Below are positions 23,532 through 34,882 of a stretch of DNA of 64,000 nt, one piece after another. Below the pieces are notes generated by a model. That model searched no databases and was not told the DNA's origin. It worked only from the letters and a program-made list of their open reading frames with translations. How positions within the stretch are numbered: the first letter of the stretch is position 1; every line of letters begins with the position of its first letter. The stretch is from Saccharospirillum sp. (GTDB taxonomy: Bacteria; Pseudomonadota; Gammaproteobacteria; Pseudomonadales; Natronospirillaceae), in contig JAIUML010000001.1 in assembly GCA_022565595.1 (NCBI GenBank), forward strand, positions 62,001 to 126,000. Direction: 5' to 3'. The translations under genes were made by a program, and so were the position numbers.

Positions 23532-25043
23532 TCAGAAGAAGCCCATGGGGTTGATGTCGTAGCTGACCAGCAGGTTCTTGGTTTGCTGGTAGTGGTTGAG
23601 CATCATCTTGTGGTTCTCGCGACCCACGCCGGATTTCTTGTAACCACCAAAGGCCGCATGAGCCGGGTAATGGTGATAGCAATTGGTCCACACTCGGCCC
23701 GCCTCGATACCGCGACCCAGACGATAGGCACGGTTCATGTCACGCGTCCACAAGCCGGCACCGAGGCCAAACTCGGAATCGTTGGCAATGGCCAGGGCTT
23801 CGGCCTCGTCCTTGAAGGTAGTGACGGAAACAACAGGCCCGAAAATTTCCTCCTGGAAGACGCGCATCTTGTTGTGGCCCTTCATCAAGGTCGGCTGAAT
23901 GTAGTAGCCGGTATCCATGGAGCCTTCCTTGTCGCCACCGAGCAGGAACTCAGCACCTTCTTCGCGACCAATGGCAAAGTACCCCATGATCTTGTCGAAC
24001 TGCTCCTGAGAGGCCTGGGCCCCAACCATGACTTCGGTATCGAGCGGGTTGCCACGCTTGATCTGATTGGTGCGCTCGATTACCAGCTCCATAAAGCGGT
24101 CGTAGATGCTCTCCTGCACCAGCAAACGCGATGGGCAGGTGCAGACTTCGCCCTGGTTGAAGAAGGCCAGCACCACCCCTTCGACGCACTTGCTGAGGTA
24201 GGCGTCTTCGTTCTGCATCACATCTTCGAAATAGATGTTGGGTGACTTGCCGCCAAGCTCGACGGTCGAAGGAATGATGTTCTCGGCCGCGCACTTGAGA
24301 ATATGAGAGCCCACAGGTGTAGAGCCGGTAAAGGCAATTTTGGCAATGCGCTTGCTGGTGGCAAGAGCCTGACCGGCTTCGGCGCCATAGCCATTGACAA
24401 CATTCAGCACGCCCGGTGGCAGCAGGTCTTCAATCAGTTCCACGAACTTGAGAATGGACCAGGGCGTTTGCTCGGCCGGCTTGAGAATGGTGCAATTACC
24501 GGCCGCCAGAGCGGGTGCCAGTTTCCACGCCGCCATCAACAGCGGGAAGTTCCAAGGGATAATCTGCCCGACAACCCCCAGCGGCTCATGGAAATGGTAG
24601 GCCACGGTGTTGTTGTCGATTTCACCGATGGAGCCTTCCTGAGCGCGGATGGCACCGGCAAAGTAACGAAAGTGGTCCACGGCAAGGGGAACGTCCGCAT
24701 TCAGCGTCTCGCGCACGGCCTTGCCGTTGTCCCAGGTCTCGGCGACAGCAATCATCTCCAGGTTCTGCTCCAGCCGATCGGCGATTTTCAGCAGAATGTT
24801 GGAACGTGCAGTCACCGAGGTTGCGCCCCAGCCGGCTTTGGCGGCATGGGCGGCATCCAGTGCCAGTTCAATGTCTTCGGCGGTTGAACGCGGAATTTCG
24901 CAAAAGGCTTCGCCATTGGTGGGCGAGACATTACTGAAATACTGCCCTTTGACAGGCGCCGTCCACTTGCCACCAATGAAGTTCTCGTAGCGAGGTTTGA
25001 CGGATACGATGGAATCGGTAGAACCAGGTTGTGCATAGATCAT
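23532..25043 (-). CDS. exaC: NAD-dependent acetaldehyde dehydrogenase ExaC
   Basis: ExaC oxidises acetaldehyde to acetate in ethanol catabolism. The 503 residues match Pseudomonas ExaC closely in recognisable blocks: MIYAQPG start, [81 protein letters not shown] and [13 protein letters not shown] at the end. The catalytic cysteine is Cys301 or Cys303 in CTC. It is divergent from a LuxR-type response regulator, as in the Pseudomonas exa/ped regulon. No PQQ alcohol dehydrogenase is in the window. Confidence 0.92.
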
Positions 25044-25252
25044 GACTTGAGCCTCGATGTTGTTGTTATCGCCTCCGGCATTGCGGAGCGTGGGTTGATA
25101 CTAGGCTCACAGCAGGGGCGCCGACCATTCGGCTCAGGGGGGATTTTATTGCAACTTTGGTATTAAGTCTTTGCGCTATGGTGAAGCTTTTTGGTGTGCG
25201 ATTCTTTTACCGACTGTGCTAAAGTCACTGCAAAACAAGACTCTATACGCCT

Positions 25253-25909
25253 GTGTATACCATACTGATTGCCGACGACCATCCGCTGTTTCGAGACGCC
25301 ATGATTCAGGTTCTTCAACGCCTGTATGAAGGCTGTGAGCTGCTGCAAGCAGACGATTTCGACGCCGCCATGGAGGTAGCACAAGATCAACCGGAGCTGG
25401 ATCTCGTCCTGCTCGACCTCAACATGCCGGGAATGAATGGCTTGAATGGCCTCAAGGCACTTCGCCAACAGGCCCCTACTCTACCGGTGGCGATCATTTC
25501 CGCCGAAACGGACAAGAGCATCGTGATGCAGTCCATTGCCCTGGGTGCCGTGGGCTACCTGAATAAATCCGCTCCCAGGGAGAAACTTGACCAGGCGCTG
25601 GAACTGATACTTGCCGGCAACATCTACATTCCACCAGACATCATGCAGGCACCGGAAAGCCCCCAACCGGACCACGGCCTCCAGGCCACGCCTCAACAAC
25701 TGCACAGCTTGACGCGCAAGCAATTATTGGTACTGCAGAACATGCTCACCGGTGCATCGAACAAGCAGATCGCCTACGAACTCAACATAGCCGAGGCCAC
25801 GGTCAAGGCTCATGTGTCGGCCATATTGGCCAAACTCAATGTTTCCAACCGTGTCCAGGCAATGTTATTAGCACGAGATATCGACTTCTCGGACTACCTG
25901 AAACGCTGA
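25253..25909 (+). CDS. LuxR/NarL-type response regulator, AgmR/ErbR-like
   Basis: A 218-residue response regulator. The receiver domain has Asp8-Asp9 (ADDHPLFRD), phosphoacceptor Asp55 (LLDLNMPGMNG) and Lys in LNKSAP. The NarL-type helix-turn-helix reads LTRKQLLVLQNMLTGASNKQIAYELNIAEATVKAHVSAIL. The domain sequences resemble AgmR/ErbR (ExaE), which controls alcohol oxidation in Pseudomonas; the divergent exaC supports this. The start is GTG at 25253 (MYTILIADDH); no strong ribosome-binding site is seen. No histidine kinase is adjacent, so its partner lies elsewhere. Confidence 0.85.
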   Translation: MYTILIADDHPLFRDAMIQVLQRLYEGCELLQADDFDAAMEVAQDQPELDLVLLDLNMPGMNGLNGLKALRQQAPTLPVAIISAETDKSIVMQSIALGAVGYLNKSAPREKLDQALELILAGNIYIPPDIMQAPESPQPDHGLQATPQQLHSLTRKQLLVLQNMLTGASNKQIAYELNIAEATVKAHVSAILAKLNVSNRVQAMLLARDIDFSDYLKR

Positions 25910-27921: not shown

Positions 27922-28404
27922 TTATTGAGTGATTCGGGGGTCGTCTTCAGGGTTGATGTAGTCGATCGCCCAGGGTCCTGTACCGTGCAACTGAATCACG
28001 GTCTCCTCTTCGGTGTAACCGAACATTGGCTCGCCCGGCGCCATAATGGCGACGGCACCTTGGGGCAAAGCCTTGGCCTGTTGACGATCAAATTCATCTC
28101 CATGTGCGAAGTAAAAAGTCCCGGAGATCACCGTGACGCGCTCGTAAGCGGGATGCACATGAGGCTCAACCCGGTAGTTGGCGGGCAGCAGCAACCGGAA
28201 GGTGAAGGGGTCGTCTGTACCCAGTTCACCCTCGATTACCGCGATACGAGCGTCACCCGACATGGAGCCAACGGGCCCCCACTCCAGTTCATTAGGTAAC
28301 ACCATAATGTGGCCCTGACCCTTGTAGGGCATATCAGCCGAGACAAGGCCAGCCATCCCCATGGACACCAGGACAATGATGAACAAACGAATGCAATTGA
28401 TCAT
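27922..28404 (-). CDS. Exported cupin-domain protein
   Basis: A 160-residue protein with a signal peptide (INCIRLFIIVLVSMGMAGLVSADM, cleavage near ADM) and one cupin barrel. The metal-site motif is RVEPHVHPAYERVTVISG (two His and a Glu), and a second cupin motif includes the later GAVAIMAPGEPMFGYTEEE. Small exported cupins of this type are common but their substrates are unknown. It lies 38 bases after a methyltransferase gene on the same strand, so it is probably the second gene of the ECF-controlled arm. ChrR, the anti-sigma for a singlet-oxygen ECF factor, also carries a cupin; here the cupin is separate. Confidence 0.8.
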   Translation of the reverse strand: MINCIRLFIIVLVSMGMAGLVSADMPYKGQGHIMVLPNELEWGPVGSMSGDARIAVIEGELGTDDPFTFRLLLPANYRVEPHVHPAYERVTVISGTFYFAHGDEFDRQQAKALPQGAVAIMAPGEPMFGYTEEETVIQLHGTGPWAIDYINPEDDPRITQ

Positions 28405-28442: not shown

Positions 28443-29240
28443 TCAATGTTGCGACTTGATGGCCAACAACGAGATGCTCTTCACGCCATAACGTTCGCTG
28501 GCATTCTGTGCAGCTTCGGTCAGAAAGGCGTATTGCGAATTTGGCCAGCCACTGCTCACACTCAGCCCGACACGCTCGATCGCTCGCTGATAGTCGTCCT
28601 GTCGAATGGCACCGCCAATACAGGCCGCCCAGAGAGTGGCATCGCGCTTCACCCCTTCGGGCAGATCCTGCTCGGTGACGATGTCGGAAACCGAAAGTTT
28701 GCCGCCTGGTCGCAGCACTCGTGCAGCCTCGGCGAAGACCCGCTGTTTTTCGGCAGAGAGATTGATCACACCGTTACTGATAACGACGTCTACGCTATTG
28801 TCGTCGAACGGAACGTCCTCGATGTAACCTTCATGAAACGATACCCAGTGAAAATCGGCCTCCCTGGCCAGGCGTTCTGCTTTTCCCCGCTGCGCTTTGG
28901 TCATGTCCACACCCAGAACTCGTCCTTCCGGCCCCGTTTTTAGTGCCGCAATAAAACTGTCCATACCAGAGCCGCTGCCCATGTCCAGCACCACGTCTCC
29001 AGGCTGGATGTCCGCCAGCTCTAGCGGATTCCCGACCCCGGCGAAGGAGTCTATGGCTGCACTCGGAATGCGGTCCAGGTCCTGGGGTGAATAACCCAGA
29101 TGCTCGGCCAGAAGTCTACCCATGGCGAAGTGGTACTCCGCATAAGGTTCTTCAGCGACCTGTTGATACATGTCTTTTACCTTGCTCTCCAACGCCTGTT
29201 GATCGACGTTCAAATCGGTTGCTAATGCCTTGTCGTTCAT
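28443..29240 (-). CDS. SAM-dependent methyltransferase, ArsM-like but lacking its first Cys
   Basis: A 265-residue class I methyltransferase. Motif I is VLDMGSGSGMDS (residues 84-95); acidic VDMTKA ends strand two, and ISNGVINL and RVLRPGGKLSVSDIV follow. The architecture and the WAACIGGA segment (Cys207) resemble arsenite methyltransferases, but the place where ArsM has GCGNP reads FAGVGNP (66-72), without cysteine. The ATG at 29240 follows GGGAGGA. An ECF-like promoter (GGAAC-N17-CGTCC) lies upstream. The substrate is unknown; a metalloid or a small thiol-type nucleophile is possible. It is paralogous to the methyltransferase domain at 30633. Confidence 0.85.
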   Translation of the reverse strand: MNDKALATDLNVDQQALESKVKDMYQQVAEEPYAEYHFAMGRLLAEHLGYSPQDLDRIPSAAIDSFAGVGNPLELADIQPGDVVLDMGSGSGMDSFIAALKTGPEGRVLGVDMTKAQRGKAERLAREADFHWVSFHEGYIEDVPFDDNSVDVVISNGVINLSAEKQRVFAEAARVLRPGGKLSVSDIVTEQDLPEGVKRDATLWAACIGGAIRQDDYQRAIERVGLSVSSGWPNSQYAFLTEAAQNASERYGVKSISLLAIKSQH

Positions 29241-29310
29241 AACCAGAGTCCTCCCATGCTTTCCTGTTTTTCTCGCGGCACGCTGCGTTGGTACCCTAGA
29301 GTCCAGGCAA

Positions 29311-29337
29311 GGACGCAGCAGCATGAAAAATGGTTCC
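29311..29337 (-). promoter_or_regulatory. ECF-type promoter of the methyltransferase-cupin arm
   Basis: On the minus strand GGAAC (29337-29333) is followed after exactly 17 bases by CGTCC (29315-29311). The identical pair with the same spacing lies on the other strand before the sigma gene. The -10 is 70 bases upstream of the methyltransferase start. Confidence 0.7.
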
Positions 29338-29383
29338 TGCTCAATCAGTAAATGACAAAATCGATCGATTATAGAGGGCAGCG

Positions 29384-29410
29384 GGAACTTTTTATCAGGC
29401 CTATGCGTCC
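29384..29410 (+). promoter_or_regulatory. ECF-type autoregulatory promoter of the sigma operon
   Basis: GGAAC (29384-29388), a spacer of 17 bases and CGTCC (29406-29410) match the general ECF pattern GGAAC/-10 CGT. The element is shared with the divergent arm, which argues that the sigma factor drives both arms and itself. Confidence 0.7.
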
Positions 29411-29446
29411 TGCATTTTGCGTGCGTTTTACGCGACCTGAATTCGT

Positions 29447-29467
29447 GCCTATACTTCTGCTATAGGC
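29447..29467. promoter_or_regulatory. Inverted repeat before the ECF sigma gene
   Basis: GCCTATA (29447-29453) and TATAGGC (29461-29467) are perfect inverse copies separated by seven bases, 40 bases before the sigma start. It could be an operator for a second regulator or a leader hairpin. Confidence 0.4.
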
Positions 29468-29507
29468 TGCGGATAAAACACTCGGTCCTACCCTTCAGGA
29501 GTCTGTC

Positions 29508-30167
29508 GTGGGAGTGCCAATGCCACATCCGGATCAACAAGAAGATGAGCAAGGTCTTGATGAGCGCCGAGCAATCTTCAAACAAAAAATCGAGTGCCTG
29601 CTCGATCGTCTTTACGGCACTGCATTAAGATTGACGCGCGACCCGTATGAGGCAGAGGACGTGGTCGCCGAGTCGGTCAGCAAGGCGTGGGCCAGTCTCG
29701 ACCAATTGGATGACCCTCACTCAATGGAGCCCTGGCTATTTCGCATCCTGAACAATACCTTTGTCAGTCACTGGCGGCGTCAACGTCGACGCCAGGAAAT
29801 GGAATCGGAATCGTTAACCGATGAGGAAGACCTGAATGCAGAGCGATTTTCGTTGTTTCGCGAACTCCACCAACCCTTCCTGCTCTGGTGGGGCACGCCA
29901 GAGCAACAACTGCTGAACACTATTCTGCGTGAAGACCTGCAGTGCGCCCTGGACAACCTTCCGGATGCTTTCCGTCATGTGGTTGTGTTGATAGAAGTCC
30001 AGGGATATACCTACGAAGAGGCAGCAGAGATACTGCATACCCCCTTGGGTACAATACGCTCCAGACTCAACCGAGGCCGAGGTCTGTTGCAGAAAGCGCT
30101 CTGGAAACAAGGCAGAGCGGCTGGGCTGGTAGCTGACAGTGGCAACTCGAGTGGAGAAAGACCATGA
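29508..30167 (+). CDS. ECF RNA polymerase sigma factor
   Basis: A 219-residue extracytoplasmic-function sigma factor. Region 2 reads LYGTALRLTRDPYEAEDVVAESVSKAWASL then WLFRILNNTFVSHWRRQRR. Region 4 reads LDNLPDAFRHVVVLIEVQGYTYEEAAEILHTPLGTIRSRLNRGRGLL. A longer acidic linker (about 105-135) separates them. The start is GTG 29508 with AGGAG six bases upstream; ATG 29520 is an alternative. Its stop overlaps the anti-sigma start as ATGA. Candidate targets are its own operon and the divergent methyltransferase-cupin arm. Confidence 0.93.
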   Translation: MGVPMPHPDQQEDEQGLDERRAIFKQKIECLLDRLYGTALRLTRDPYEAEDVVAESVSKAWASLDQLDDPHSMEPWLFRILNNTFVSHWRRQRRRQEMESESLTDEEDLNAERFSLFRELHQPFLLWWGTPEQQLLNTILREDLQCALDNLPDAFRHVVVLIEVQGYTYEEAAEILHTPLGTIRSRLNRGRGLLQKALWKQGRAAGLVADSGNSSGERP

Positions 30168-30556
30168 ACTCCAGGCACCTGAACTGCGATGCAGTCATCA
30201 AACGGGTCATTGATCACCTGGAGAGAACACCAGGGGTACCGCTCGATGCCGAAACAGAAAAACACTTGAAAGCCTGCGCAGACTGCCACAGCCGAGCTGA
30301 AATAGAACGACGCATTCGCATTGGAACCGGCAAACTGAACTGTGAAGAAGTCATCGAATTATTGTTCGACTATCTTGACCAGGAGATAAGCCATCCTTTG
30401 AGTACTCATATCGAACGTCACCTGGAAACCTGTCGCGACTGCTTTTCACGCGCCGAGTTCGAAAAGCGATTAAGAGCCAGAGTACGAGAGAGTGCCGAGG
30501 TTCAGGCACCGGAGCGACTAAAACTGCGCATCAAATCACTCATCGAAAAATTCTAA
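30164..30556 (+). CDS. Zinc-binding anti-sigma factor with duplicated motif
   Basis: A 130-residue soluble protein with no membrane helix. It contains two copies of the zinc anti-sigma (ZAS) pattern Cys-X25-His-X3-Cys-X2-Cys: LNC at residue 8 with HLKACADC, and LNCEEV with HLETCRDC. The spacing is identical in both, so the protein arose by internal duplication. ZAS proteins release their sigma factor when zinc thiolates are oxidised or bound by metals. Translational coupling to the sigma gene makes it the likely partner. The C-terminal helix (APERLKLRIKSLIEKF) may also contact sigma. Confidence 0.85.
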   Translation: MNSRHLNCDAVIKRVIDHLERTPGVPLDAETEKHLKACADCHSRAEIERRIRIGTGKLNCEEVIELLFDYLDQEISHPLSTHIERHLETCRDCFSRAEFEKRLRARVRESAEVQAPERLKLRIKSLIEKF

Positions 30557-30632
30557 TCAGAGAGCGTCCAGTTCGCAGTGACAGCTGGATCGACAAATAA
30601 AACTGAACGCAAGCCAACGGAGGCACCTGTTT

Positions 30633-31853
30633 ATGGTTGCAGTATTGGGCTATTCACGCGAACAGATTGTCGAGGCGGTGAAAGAGATGTACACCCTTGT
30701 GGCCGATGTCCCTACTTCGACCTTTCATTTCCCGGTTGGCCGCAAGGCCTGCGATGCCCTGGGCTACCCCAGAGAGCAAACCGACCCGTTGCCAGAAACA
30801 CTGCTGGAATCCTTTGCAGGAGTCGGCAACCCTTTCAATGCCAACCTCATCCAGCCGGGTGACACCGTCCTGGATATTGGCGCTGGTGCTGGCACAGACA
30901 GCCTTATAGCAGCAGGCCTGGTTGGCTCCAAGGGGCAGGTGATCGCGCTGGACATTACGCCGGCGATGATTGCCAAGCTGAGCCAAACACTGGAAGCGGC
31001 CGGCTACACTAATGTGACCGCCAAAGTAGGGTCAGCCGAAGCCATCCCATTGCCAGACAAATCAGTGGATGTCATCACCAGCAACGGCGCCTTGAATCTG
31101 GTACCCGACAAGCGTCGCGCCATCACAGAGATGTTCCGAGTACTCAGACCCGGGGGGCGTCTACAAATTGCCGATGTCGTGATTCGTAGACCGGTTACCG
31201 TAGACTGTGACAATGACCCACGGCTCTGGGTGGAGTGTGTGGTTGGTGCCACCGTCGACGAAGACCTGGTCACGCTGTTCCGCGATTGCGGATTTCAGAG
31301 TATCAAGACCGTGCGCGTTCAGGACTATTTTGCTCACAGCCCCAGCGCCCAGACGCGAGAGATAGCCACCAGCTTCGGAGCCTACTCCATGGAGCTGAGC
31401 ATGTGTCGCGGCGAGCGTGCACCTTCCACTTTGCAGCAGTGGCTCAAGCGACTCAACCCTCAGCGCTGGGTACGTGCTATCTGGCGGCGAGGGCTGACCG
31501 GCGTGACAGCTTTACTAATGGCGCTGATCTCCTGTTACGGCACTCTGGGCGCCCTGGCGTTACTGCCGTTGCTGGGTATGAACCTGATTCTGGACGAGGG
31601 GATCTGGGCTTTAACCATCGCCGCTTTTACTGTCATCACCGCCGTTGCCGTCGCCGCTGGTTGGCGTCGTCATGGCTCCACCGCCCCTGTCATTGGTGCG
31701 GTTATTGGGGTGGGCACAATCAACTATGCACTGTTTATTAATTACCACTTGATCGTCGAGGCTACGGGTTTTCTTGTGCTTGCCGGCGCAGCGGGATGGG
31801 ACCTCTATCTCAAACGGCGTTCTGAAGCACGAGCCCTGGGGTTGAGTTCATAG
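30633..31853 (+). CDS. Methyltransferase fused to a four-helix membrane domain
   Basis: A 406-residue fusion. Residues 1-260 are a class I methyltransferase paralogous to the 28443-29240 product: FAGVGNP (61-67), VLDIGAGAGTDS (79-90), ALDITP, SNGALNL and WVECVVGA with Cys202. Residues about 288-395 form three or four hydrophobic helices (GVTALLMALISCYGTLGALALLPLLGM, WALTIAAFTVITAVAVAAGW and others) like a MerC-type or small multi-helix membrane domain; only one Cys is present there, so metal transport by a Cys pair is unlikely. It follows the anti-sigma by 77 bases in one operon. The substrate is unknown; the enzyme would be membrane-anchored facing the cytoplasm. Confidence 0.85.
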   Translation: MVAVLGYSREQIVEAVKEMYTLVADVPTSTFHFPVGRKACDALGYPREQTDPLPETLLESFAGVGNPFNANLIQPGDTVLDIGAGAGTDSLIAAGLVGSKGQVIALDITPAMIAKLSQTLEAAGYTNVTAKVGSAEAIPLPDKSVDVITSNGALNLVPDKRRAITEMFRVLRPGGRLQIADVVIRRPVTVDCDNDPRLWVECVVGATVDEDLVTLFRDCGFQSIKTVRVQDYFAHSPSAQTREIATSFGAYSMELSMCRGERAPSTLQQWLKRLNPQRWVRAIWRRGLTGVTALLMALISCYGTLGALALLPLLGMNLILDEGIWALTIAAFTVITAVAVAAGWRRHGSTAPVIGAVIGVGTINYALFINYHLIVEATGFLVLAGAAGWDLYLKRRSEARALGLSS

Positions 31854-32648: not shown

Positions 32649-33818
32649 TTACGCCTCTGGATCAAAAGTGTTCACGGACTGATTTATCTTGCGTTCTACC
32701 ATCAGCAAAGGTATCAGCATAGCCAAAAGCCCAACCCCCCATGCCCCATAAAAAGCAGGGGCCACTTGCCATGCTATTAATCCACCTGCCAGCAAGGCAC
32801 CGACAGCAGCGGACAGATCACGCCAGAAGGTAAAGCTGTTCAGACTTTGTTGTCGTTCAATTCGGTTCTCTGCTCGGTCTGAAAGCAACCTTGGCACCAG
32901 TATCATGAACAAGCCATGGCCGATAATAGCCAGTGCACTGGCCAAAAGGACTGACTTCAGCGCCATCAGGACACAGGCCAGCCACATCAAGCCAAAAGCC
33001 AGACTCAACCAGGCCCCTGTTTGTTGCCAGGTATCCAATCGAACCACGACAAAGCCGAGCGCCATGTTGAAAAGCCGCTTGCCCACCAGCAACACAGAGG
33101 TCAGTGTCAGTGCCATGGCAGTGGACCAGCCGGCAGCCACCAACAGGGGTGCCAGGATGACGGTCCAAACGCCATCGAAAAGTAGACACAACACAAAGGT
33201 TAGACGATGCCAGGCATTTGGCCAGGGTAACCGGGCGCGGGCGCTCGCACCTTCCTCGGCTTCTGCCCTTGGCAAGGCCAGAGCCGGCAACATCGCCACC
33301 AGACAGAGCATAAAGGACAATACCAGCACCGCCTGCACTGAAACCTGATCAACGATCAGCGGAGTCAGCAGGAGTACCAATAGCGGGCCTACCTCCTGCA
33401 AGCTGGTGTACCAGCCAAGATTAACCATCCGCCGTTCCGGCTGCTCAGTGGCGTAGTGCAAACAGCCCAGGCGCATCAAGGCATAGGCAGAACCCCAGAG
33501 CAAACGGGCAGCCAGCAGGGCCCAGGGGTTCAGCAGCCAGATAAAACTGAGGCTGGCCAGGCTCGCCAGGACAACGGCCTGGATCATGGCCGTACGAGCA
33601 CCAAAGTGCTGAAACCACGGCACCAGCCAGGGGTTGATCAGCAAGCGCACAAAACGATTGGCCGACAACAACACCCCGACCCAAAGCAACGTCAACCCGA
33701 AGTCCTCAAAGAACAGCGGCAACAGCAGGTAGAGCACGGCATCGGAAACCAGCGTCAACGTTAAAACCAGGCTGGCCAGCACCGTTGGCCGGCTGTCTGC
33801 AGCAATCAGGCGCAGCAC
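32649..33818 (-). CDS. MFS transporter in the ars operon
   Basis: A 389-residue major facilitator protein with about twelve helices. The opening [46 protein letters not shown] carries the MFS pattern, and a GARTAM loop follows. It differs from ArsJ, whose start and loops I do not find here. It overlaps arsH by 13 bases and precedes the hydrolase with no gap. Efflux of an arsenical made or changed by ArsH is the obvious hypothesis, since no ArsB, Acr3 or ArsC is present in this operon. Confidence 0.8.
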
Positions 33819-34528
33819 GTTTTGCGTTCTACGGCCGAGGCTTCTGCAGCACTGACCACATGGTCAGTCTTGTTTTCGGAATATCGGCGTGTCAGCCCGG
33901 GCGCCTGATCGCGCAACAGGAGGGTAAACCGAAACAGCTCTTCCATCACATCAACCACCCGATCCCGATAACTGGAGTCCTTCATGCTGCCATCGACATT
34001 GAATTCTTGCCAGGCCTTGGCAACAGAGGATTGATTGGGAATGGTAAACATCCGCATCCAACGGCCAAGAATGCGTAAGGCAATGACCGCATTGAAAGAC
34101 TGGGAGCCACCACTGACCTGCATCACGGCCAGCGTCTTACCCTGAGTCGGACGAACAGATCCCTGAGTCAACGGAATCCAGTCGATCTGGTTCTTGAATA
34201 CGCCGGTAAGATTGCCATGCATCTCCGGCGAACTCCAGACCATGGCCTCACTCCAGATCACGGACTCGCGCAGCTCCCGAACCTTGGGGTGATCCGTCGA
34301 GACGTGATCAAAGACCGGCAGACCAGTGGGATCAAAGACCCGGACTTCAGCCCCGAATGCCTGGACTATGCCAGCGGCTTCAAGTGCCAGTTTACGGCTA
34401 TAGGACTCAGGCCTGAGCGACCCGTACAACACCAGAACCCGTGGTGGGTGAGTGGTCACTTGCGAGAACGCCTTCTTTTGCTGCGAGATGACGCTTTCTA
34501 CACTGTGGTCGGGCGCACCACAACTCAT
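33806..34528 (-). CDS. arsH: Organoarsenical oxidase ArsH
   Basis: ArsH is an FMN-dependent NADPH oxidoreductase that oxidises trivalent methylarsenicals to the less toxic pentavalent forms. The 240 residues match the family: [20 protein letters not shown] (flavodoxin-like phosphate loop GSLRxxSxSR), [26 protein letters not shown] and [28 protein letters not shown] precedes the ATG at 34528. An ArsR-box-like motif lies at 34544-34564, so it may have its own promoter as well as read-through from arsR. Because ArsH acts on methylated arsenic, the nearby methyltransferases are of interest. Confidence 0.95.
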
Positions 34529-34543
34529 GGCAACCTCCTATCA

Positions 34544-34564
34544 TTCTAGATATATCGAAATATA
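34544..34564. promoter_or_regulatory. Candidate ArsR operator before arsH
   Basis: TTCTAGA followed by TATATCGAAATATA. The same TTCTAGA-ATCGAA-ATATA arrangement recurs at 34924-34945 before arsR. It lies between arsR and arsH, 16 bases before the arsH start. Confidence 0.55.
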
Positions 34565-34579
34565 AAACCCCAAAAAAAA

Positions 34580-34882
34580 TCAGCACGTTTGATGCACACA
34601 GCACTCTTCCTGCAGAAAGCCCAACAGGGTGTTCAGTTGCTCAAACTGCGCAAAACAGCGCAACACCCGCCCTTCTCGGACCTGCCGTACCAGGCCAACC
34701 TGAACAAGGCGACTGATGTGATGTGAGAGCGTCGAGCCGGGAACGCCCAATGCCTGCTGCAGATCAGCCACCGGCATACCTGTGGTACCAGCCTTGACCA
34801 ATTGGCGATAAAGACCCAGCCGGGTCGTATGGCCGAGTTCGGCCAATTGTTTCGCAGCTTGTTCGAGCGTTAAGCGTTTCAT
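34580..34882 (-). CDS. arsR: ArsR-family repressor with C-terminal Cys cluster
   Basis: A 100-residue winged-helix repressor of the SmtB/ArsR family: LEQAAKQLAELGHTTRLGLYRQL, VPGSTLSHHISRLVQVGLVRQVREGRVLRC (recognition helix and wing). The C-terminus ends ECCVHQTC with Cys94, Cys95 and Cys100. This layout resembles the As(III) site of Acidithiobacillus ferrooxidans ArsR (Cys95, Cys96, Cys102), not the CVC site of plasmid R773 ArsR. The cognate operator candidates are at 34544 and 34924. It is first in the operon with arsH, the MFS gene and the hydrolase. Confidence 0.92.
   Translation of the reverse strand: MKRLTLEQAAKQLAELGHTTRLGLYRQLVKAGTTGMPVADLQQALGVPGSTLSHHISRLVQVGLVRQVREGRVLRCFAQFEQLNTLLGFLQEECCVHQTC

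Follow-up and report, generated by a model that had tools for sequence, protein, structure and literature searches.

A divergent gene cluster in Saccharospirillum sp. probably constitutes a self-regulating stress module under the control of an extracytoplasmic function (ECF) sigma factor. The window analysed is a stretch of 64,000 nucleotides from this organism, of which positions 28,443-31,853 are shown, and all coordinates follow the numbering of the whole stretch. A preliminary description had identified a sigma factor operon ending in a methyltransferase fused to a membrane domain (MTC) and, on the opposite strand, a methyltransferase (MT1) paired with a cupin, and this gene content is borne out by the open reading frames (ORFs). 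Overall, what that description observed is confirmed and its interpretation is supported in part. The directly observed support comprises the gene content, the conserved promoter pair, the co-inheritance of the sigma factor with MTC, the zinc ligands of the anti-sigma factor and the absence of two ArsM cysteines from the methyltransferases.

The core of the module consists of the sigma factor, an RsrA-like anti-sigma factor with a CHCC zinc motif, and MTC, and is found in Proteobacteria and other phyla. A single-protein scan of genome contigs found no relative, near full-length MTC was present in 2 of 95 other related genomes, and an alignment scan of 84,980 species genomes yielded 220 relatives, of which 80 were kept. 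These, together with the window and two further loci and less two duplicates (L053 of L039 and L057 of L040), make up the 81 loci studied; genes in the relatives' loci were called by codon score, since the longest frame misleads in GC-rich loci. The kept relatives belong to Halomonas-type genera, Marinobacter, Saccharospirillum, Thioalkalivibrio, beta- and alphaproteobacteria, as well as Nitrospirae, Gemmatimonadetes, Ignavibacteria and Phytoactinopolyspora. The sigma factor was detected in 74 of the 81 loci and an anti-sigma hit in 76; MT1 (37 loci) and the cupin (35 loci) do belong to the set but are accessories rather than core members. Sigma and MTC distances correlate closely (r 0.895, n=71, 0 of 2000 permutations), and the two proteins are co-inherited. 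A plasmid-borne module was considered and rejected: MTC has matches in 480 plasmid records, yet in no record is 80% of its length covered at a single site.

Conservation of the promoter motifs

The two arms carry the identical divergent boxes first reported for them, GGAAC-N17-CGTCC, with a 17-nucleotide spacer in both. Chance alone would give 0.23 matches in the window, and two matches were reached in 2 of 100 shuffles; taken alone, the box pair argues only modestly against chance, and the weight rests on its conservation across loci. The promoter count covered 72 loci, with the motif sought within 350 bp before the sigma gene; the nine loci left out lacked a sigma hit (seven, four of them with MTC near the end of its contig) or had little sequence upstream (two). 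The motif occurs on the sigma side in 65 of the 72 loci, in divergent orientation in 48 and in both positions in 47, compared with 1.0%, 0.94% and 0.10%, respectively, of 14,200 random windows of the same loci. As many loci represent close kin, the counts were repeated after thinning to below 70% sigma identity, and the 30 representatives included 24 with the sigma-side motif, 13 with the divergent motif and 12 with both (0.34%, 0.36% and 0 in shuffled upstream stretches). A chance origin of the box pair is rejected because these frequencies far exceed those in random windows and shuffles, and the comparison across relatives proposed in the preliminary description thus finds the pair conserved.

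The motif also tracks the individual arms. It lies on the same strand within 900 bp upstream of MT1 in 35 of 37 loci (random, 8.9%) and within 1100 bp upstream of the cupin gene in 33 of 35 (random, 10.8%). Within the tail CGTCCTNG, a G at position 30 is common to both arms of the 44 N17 pairs (42/44 and 41/44). Sigma, MT1 or cupin genes follow 104 of the 179 motif instances in the 81 loci, with 23 preceding other genes, 38 inside genes and 14 without a gene called downstream. Taken at sequence level, the conserved promoters are consistent with the sigma autoregulation proposed earlier.

The genome search that had likewise been suggested found 13 strict sites: two between the divergent genes described here, eight within genes, one overlapping a gene start, one upstream of another ECF-type sigma gene and one without a gene called nearby. 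Judged by this context the regulon, which had been called self-contained, looks mostly local. The longer tail GCGTCCTNG matches only the minus-strand site of the window genome-wide. The site before the other sigma gene (G000:C26:30332-30357; ECF-type by Pfam, rpoE by eye) suggests that a second sigma factor may overlap in promoter use.

Components of the module

Features of the divergent cluster, in whole-stretch coordinates
Feature	Position	Strand	Basis
Cupin with hydrophobic leader, HxHxxxE cupin motif	27922..28404	(-)	ORF, alignment, model
MT1, ArsM-like methyltransferase	28443..29240	(-)	PRK11873, PDB 5evj, 37-row alignment
Promoter motif GGAAC-N17-CGTCC, MT1/cupin arm	29311..29337	(-)	Pattern match and conservation
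Promoter motif GGAAC-N17-CGTCC, sigma arm	29384..29410	(+)	Pattern match and conservation
ECF sigma factor, SigR/SigH-like; alternative start ATG 29520	29508..30167	(+)	Pfam, TIGR02947, PDB
RsrA-like anti-sigma factor with two CHCC zinc motifs	30164..30556	(+)	TIGR03988, zf-HC2, alignment, RsrA 5frf
MTC, ArsM-like methyltransferase domain	30633..31418	(+)	PRK11873, PDB, alignment, model
MerC-like four-helix membrane domain fused to MTC	31497..31805	(+)	PF03203, model, alignment

The span 28443-31853 given in the preliminary description takes in all of these genes except that of the cupin, which lies outside it. The sigma factor matches Pfam Sigma70_r2 and r4_2 above cut-off, and its nearest solved chains are SigH (6jcy_F and 5zx2_F in PDB); its score of 130.3 bits against SigH_actino TIGR02947 lies below the cut-off of 251.55. 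Its gene shares four bases (30164-30167) with that of the anti-sigma factor, an overlap noted before, which couples the two.

The anti-sigma factor was rightly described as zinc-type: it has CHCC ligands and passes the RsrA model TIGR03988 (67 bits; cut-off 62.5), and its profile is nearest to RsrA 5frf. The same model matches all 28 anti-sigma factors scanned, window included, at a threshold of E 0.001 rather than a per-protein cut-off. Two stretches match Pfam zf-HC2 and hold the motifs C8/H34/C38/C41 and C60/H86/C90/C93, so that the reported duplication resides in one protein and not in two genes; this doubling is confined to the window, 1 of the 76 loci with an anti-sigma hit. In the 28-row alignment H86, C90 and C93 are invariant and C60 nearly so, its sole gap (L109) reflecting a truncated start in a protein that does have the cysteine. 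Five of the 76 anti-sigma factors first read without a zinc motif show CHCC in the correct frame. In RsrA, oxidation expels zinc, a disulfide forms through the first cysteine, which is required for redox sensing, and the sigma factor is freed (PMC4960319). From the CHCC site and the analogy with RsrA we therefore infer that a thiol, an oxidant or a thiophilic metal would be the trigger.

MT1 and MTC, previously described as paired related enzymes, both match ArsM models, although their scores against ArsM PRK11873 (231.8 bits, E 1e-68, for MT1; 191.9 bits for MTC) are below the cut-off of 263. Among solved structures both enzymes come closest to ArsM, with 5evj the best PDB match of MT1, and ArsM structures are also the best fold matches of the MTC model (predicted local distance difference test, pLDDT, 87.8). 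The three cysteines of ArsM are C72, C174 and C224 (PMC7248198), and we placed them by aligning both proteins to chain 5evj. MTC has V64 (80/80, one row gapped), G152 (81/81) and C202 (81/81) at these positions, and MT1 has V69 (37/37), G157 (37/37) and C207 (36/36, one row gapped). Because V, G and C stand at the three ArsM cysteine positions, canonical arsenite methylation by either enzyme is unlikely.

Since the scan for relatives relied on the peptides FAGVG[NY]PF and ALNLVPDK, it was biased towards V64. A class-wide search of 369 genomes dispensed with these peptides, although its profile was made from proteins with this VGC signature; the best 30 loci read comprised 19 VGC, one VAC, one VG with an aligned stop sign after it, and nine classical CCC enzymes. 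A sigma hit accompanied five of these 30 loci, window included, all of them VGC, and none of the nine CCC loci within flanks of ~1.5 kb. The VGC subfamily is probably wider than the sigma module, because VGC enzymes without a sigma factor in these short flanks also occur.

The membrane domain noted earlier can now be specified as MerC-like, and the enzymes as ArsM-like but lacking two of the three ArsM cysteines. MTC and its membrane domain form one gene (30633-31853, plus strand) in which MerC PF03203 scores 41.2 bits, above the gathering cut-off of 27.6, and the model has membrane helices at 289-314, 322-347, 351-368 and 373-401. MerC carries a cysteine pair in its first membrane helix, whereas helix 289-314 of the window MTC has the single cysteine C301, found in all 56 MTC rows that reach this column; 25 of the 81 rows have no residue there. 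A MerC domain was detected in 32 of 42 MTC proteins, and eight of the 42 are short forms without a tail. Longer forms of about 448-517 aa with tails past the MerC-like domain occur in L091, L095, L096, L097 and L105, and the two tails scanned (L091 and L095) gave no Pfam match.

The cupin has Pfam cupin-type matches that all fall below cut-off and no NCBIfam match. H82, H84 and E88 are invariant in its 26-row alignment, and the nearest folds to its model (pLDDT 86.7) are TM1459-type cupins. It had been described as exported; the hydrophobic leader is present by eye, and from this leader the protein is probably exported.

Proposed mechanism and candidate substrates

In the mechanism we propose, the CHCC zinc anti-sigma factor would hold the ECF sigma factor, in the manner of RsrA, until its zinc or cysteines are taken by thiol oxidation, an electrophile or a thiophilic metal. 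The freed sigma factor would then read the GGAAC-N17-CGTCC promoters on both arms, as their conserved sites suggest, and so increase expression of the sigma operon as well as of the methyltransferase/cupin arm. This would yield two ArsM-like enzymes with the VGC signature, one of them held at the membrane by its MerC-like domain; these enzymes may methylate a thiophilic or reactive-sulfur toxicant, with the cupin probably acting outside the cytoplasm.

Neighbouring genes in relatives appear to point to a redox and sulfur theme. DsrE was confirmed in eight loci tested (L070, L084, L086, L092, L095, L101, L105 and L117), and the 23 other genes preceded by the motif include DsrE (L070, L084, L105), DUF1858 (L091, L105), DUF302 (L042, L079), YceI (L106), a globin (L091) and an AhpC/TSA protein (L117). 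OsmC is a further neighbour; an OsmC-like gene follows a short MTC in L111 (6988-7551) and L113 (6889-7452), from Phytoactinopolyspora and a Gemmatimonadetes metagenome-assembled genome. In the window, positions 23532-25909 encode an aldehyde dehydrogenase that scores above the ExaC cut-off and a response regulator that resembles ErdR but falls below cut-off; the dehydrogenase lies near the module in 20 loci and the regulator in 17, window included and mostly Halomonas-type.

Several observations weigh against a self-regulating module with such a function. The strict pattern is not enriched genome-wide, its 13 sites comparing with 61 for a reversed control pattern, and the sigma-side motif alone is ordinary because ECF genes often carry such promoters. 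At a thinning of 60% sigma identity, 13 representatives include ten with the sigma-side motif, five with the divergent motif and just four with both. The sigma motif is present in 10 of 11 non-proteobacterial loci examined and the divergent motif in none of these 11, so the divergent pair is, as far as seen, proteobacterial. Neither motif was found near sigma in six loci (L047, L084, L086, L087, L092 and L099), and L042 has the reverse motif only; in L084, L086, L087 and L092 the called genes just upstream run in the direction of sigma, and a motif precedes this run in L084 and L087 only. The others of the 23 motif-preceded genes have no evident link, and the redox theme rests on hand-picked neighbours with no background count.

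For the VGC methyltransferases a thiophilic substrate is suggested by ArsM ancestry, retention of a single cysteine, fusion to the MerC-like domain and the neighbouring genes, and we rate it at slightly under an even chance. A fuller proposal, put forward tentatively and more doubtful than the regulation itself, is a cross-phylum stress regulon with an undescribed methylation detoxification, in which a soft metal(loid) or sulfane-sulfur species brought in by the MerC-like domain would be handled by C202 in the enzyme and C301 in the membrane domain. The enzymes might instead methylate a small molecule or lipid (quinone, thiol or fatty acid) under oxidative stress, their likeness to ArsM being a matter of ancestry; the loss of two metal-binding cysteines and the OsmC, DsrE and AhpC/TSA neighbours favour this rather unlikely alternative, which leaves the invariant C202 and C301 and the MerC-like fusion unexplained. 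A mercury or soft-metal transport and modification device, in which the MerC-like domain brings metal to the fused methyltransferase, would account for the Pfam match and for one invariant cysteine in each domain, but is improbable given the single cysteine in the first helix and the rows lacking the C301 column. Least probable is an arsenic-resistance module methylating arsenite like ArsM, which has the structural likeness to ArsM and arsH and arsR-like genes 2-3 kb downstream in the window on its side, and against it the V and G in all MTC and MT1 rows, the sigma factor confined to VGC loci in the class-wide reading, and ArsH in none and an ArsR-like gene in two of the 80 other loci (short stretches around the module searched).

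The two genes concerned occupy 33806-34882 on the minus strand (ArsH by TIGR02690, above cut-off; ArsR/SmtB-like regulator, just below cut-off) and adjoin a transporter-like protein recognized by eye. An arsenic island was rejected, as the nearby arsH/arsR genes are not common to the relatives within the short stretches searched.

Relation to known systems

The regulatory pair resembles SigR-RsrA of Streptomyces and actinobacterial SigH in its nearest sigma chains and anti-sigma profile, its CHCC zinc site and its order of sigma gene then anti-sigma gene. It differs in its mostly proteobacterial hosts, its small local methyltransferase regulon, a sigma factor below the TIGR02947 cut-off, and its promoter sequence, the SigR consensus being about GGAAT-N18-GTT. 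The catalytic domains share fold and sequence with ArsM arsenite methyltransferases (5evj, 4fr0), from which they depart in the V and G at the C72/C174 positions, the MerC-like fusion, ECF control and scores below the PRK11873 cut-off. Likewise the membrane domain shares four helices and PF03203 with MerC, but is fused to a methyltransferase and has one cysteine in its first helix. A zinc anti-sigma factor and a cupin also occur in one regulon in RpoE-ChrR; ChrR fuses a cupin-like domain to the anti-sigma factor (PMC8999054) and has an HHCC zinc site (PMC4960319), whereas the present cupin is a protein in its own right, with a leader, and the anti-sigma site is CHCC. Searches of an open-access library, read at the level of titles and abstract openings, showed no description of this gene set, and the 2021 ECF classification may list it as a numbered group.

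The module offers a defined regulon with a conserved promoter code that is easily tested. It also singles out an ArsM-like subfamily that lacks two of the three ArsM cysteines even though the models closest to it are those of arsenite methyltransferases. Should VGC proteins carry the name ArsM in databases, the number of arsenic methylators would be overestimated.

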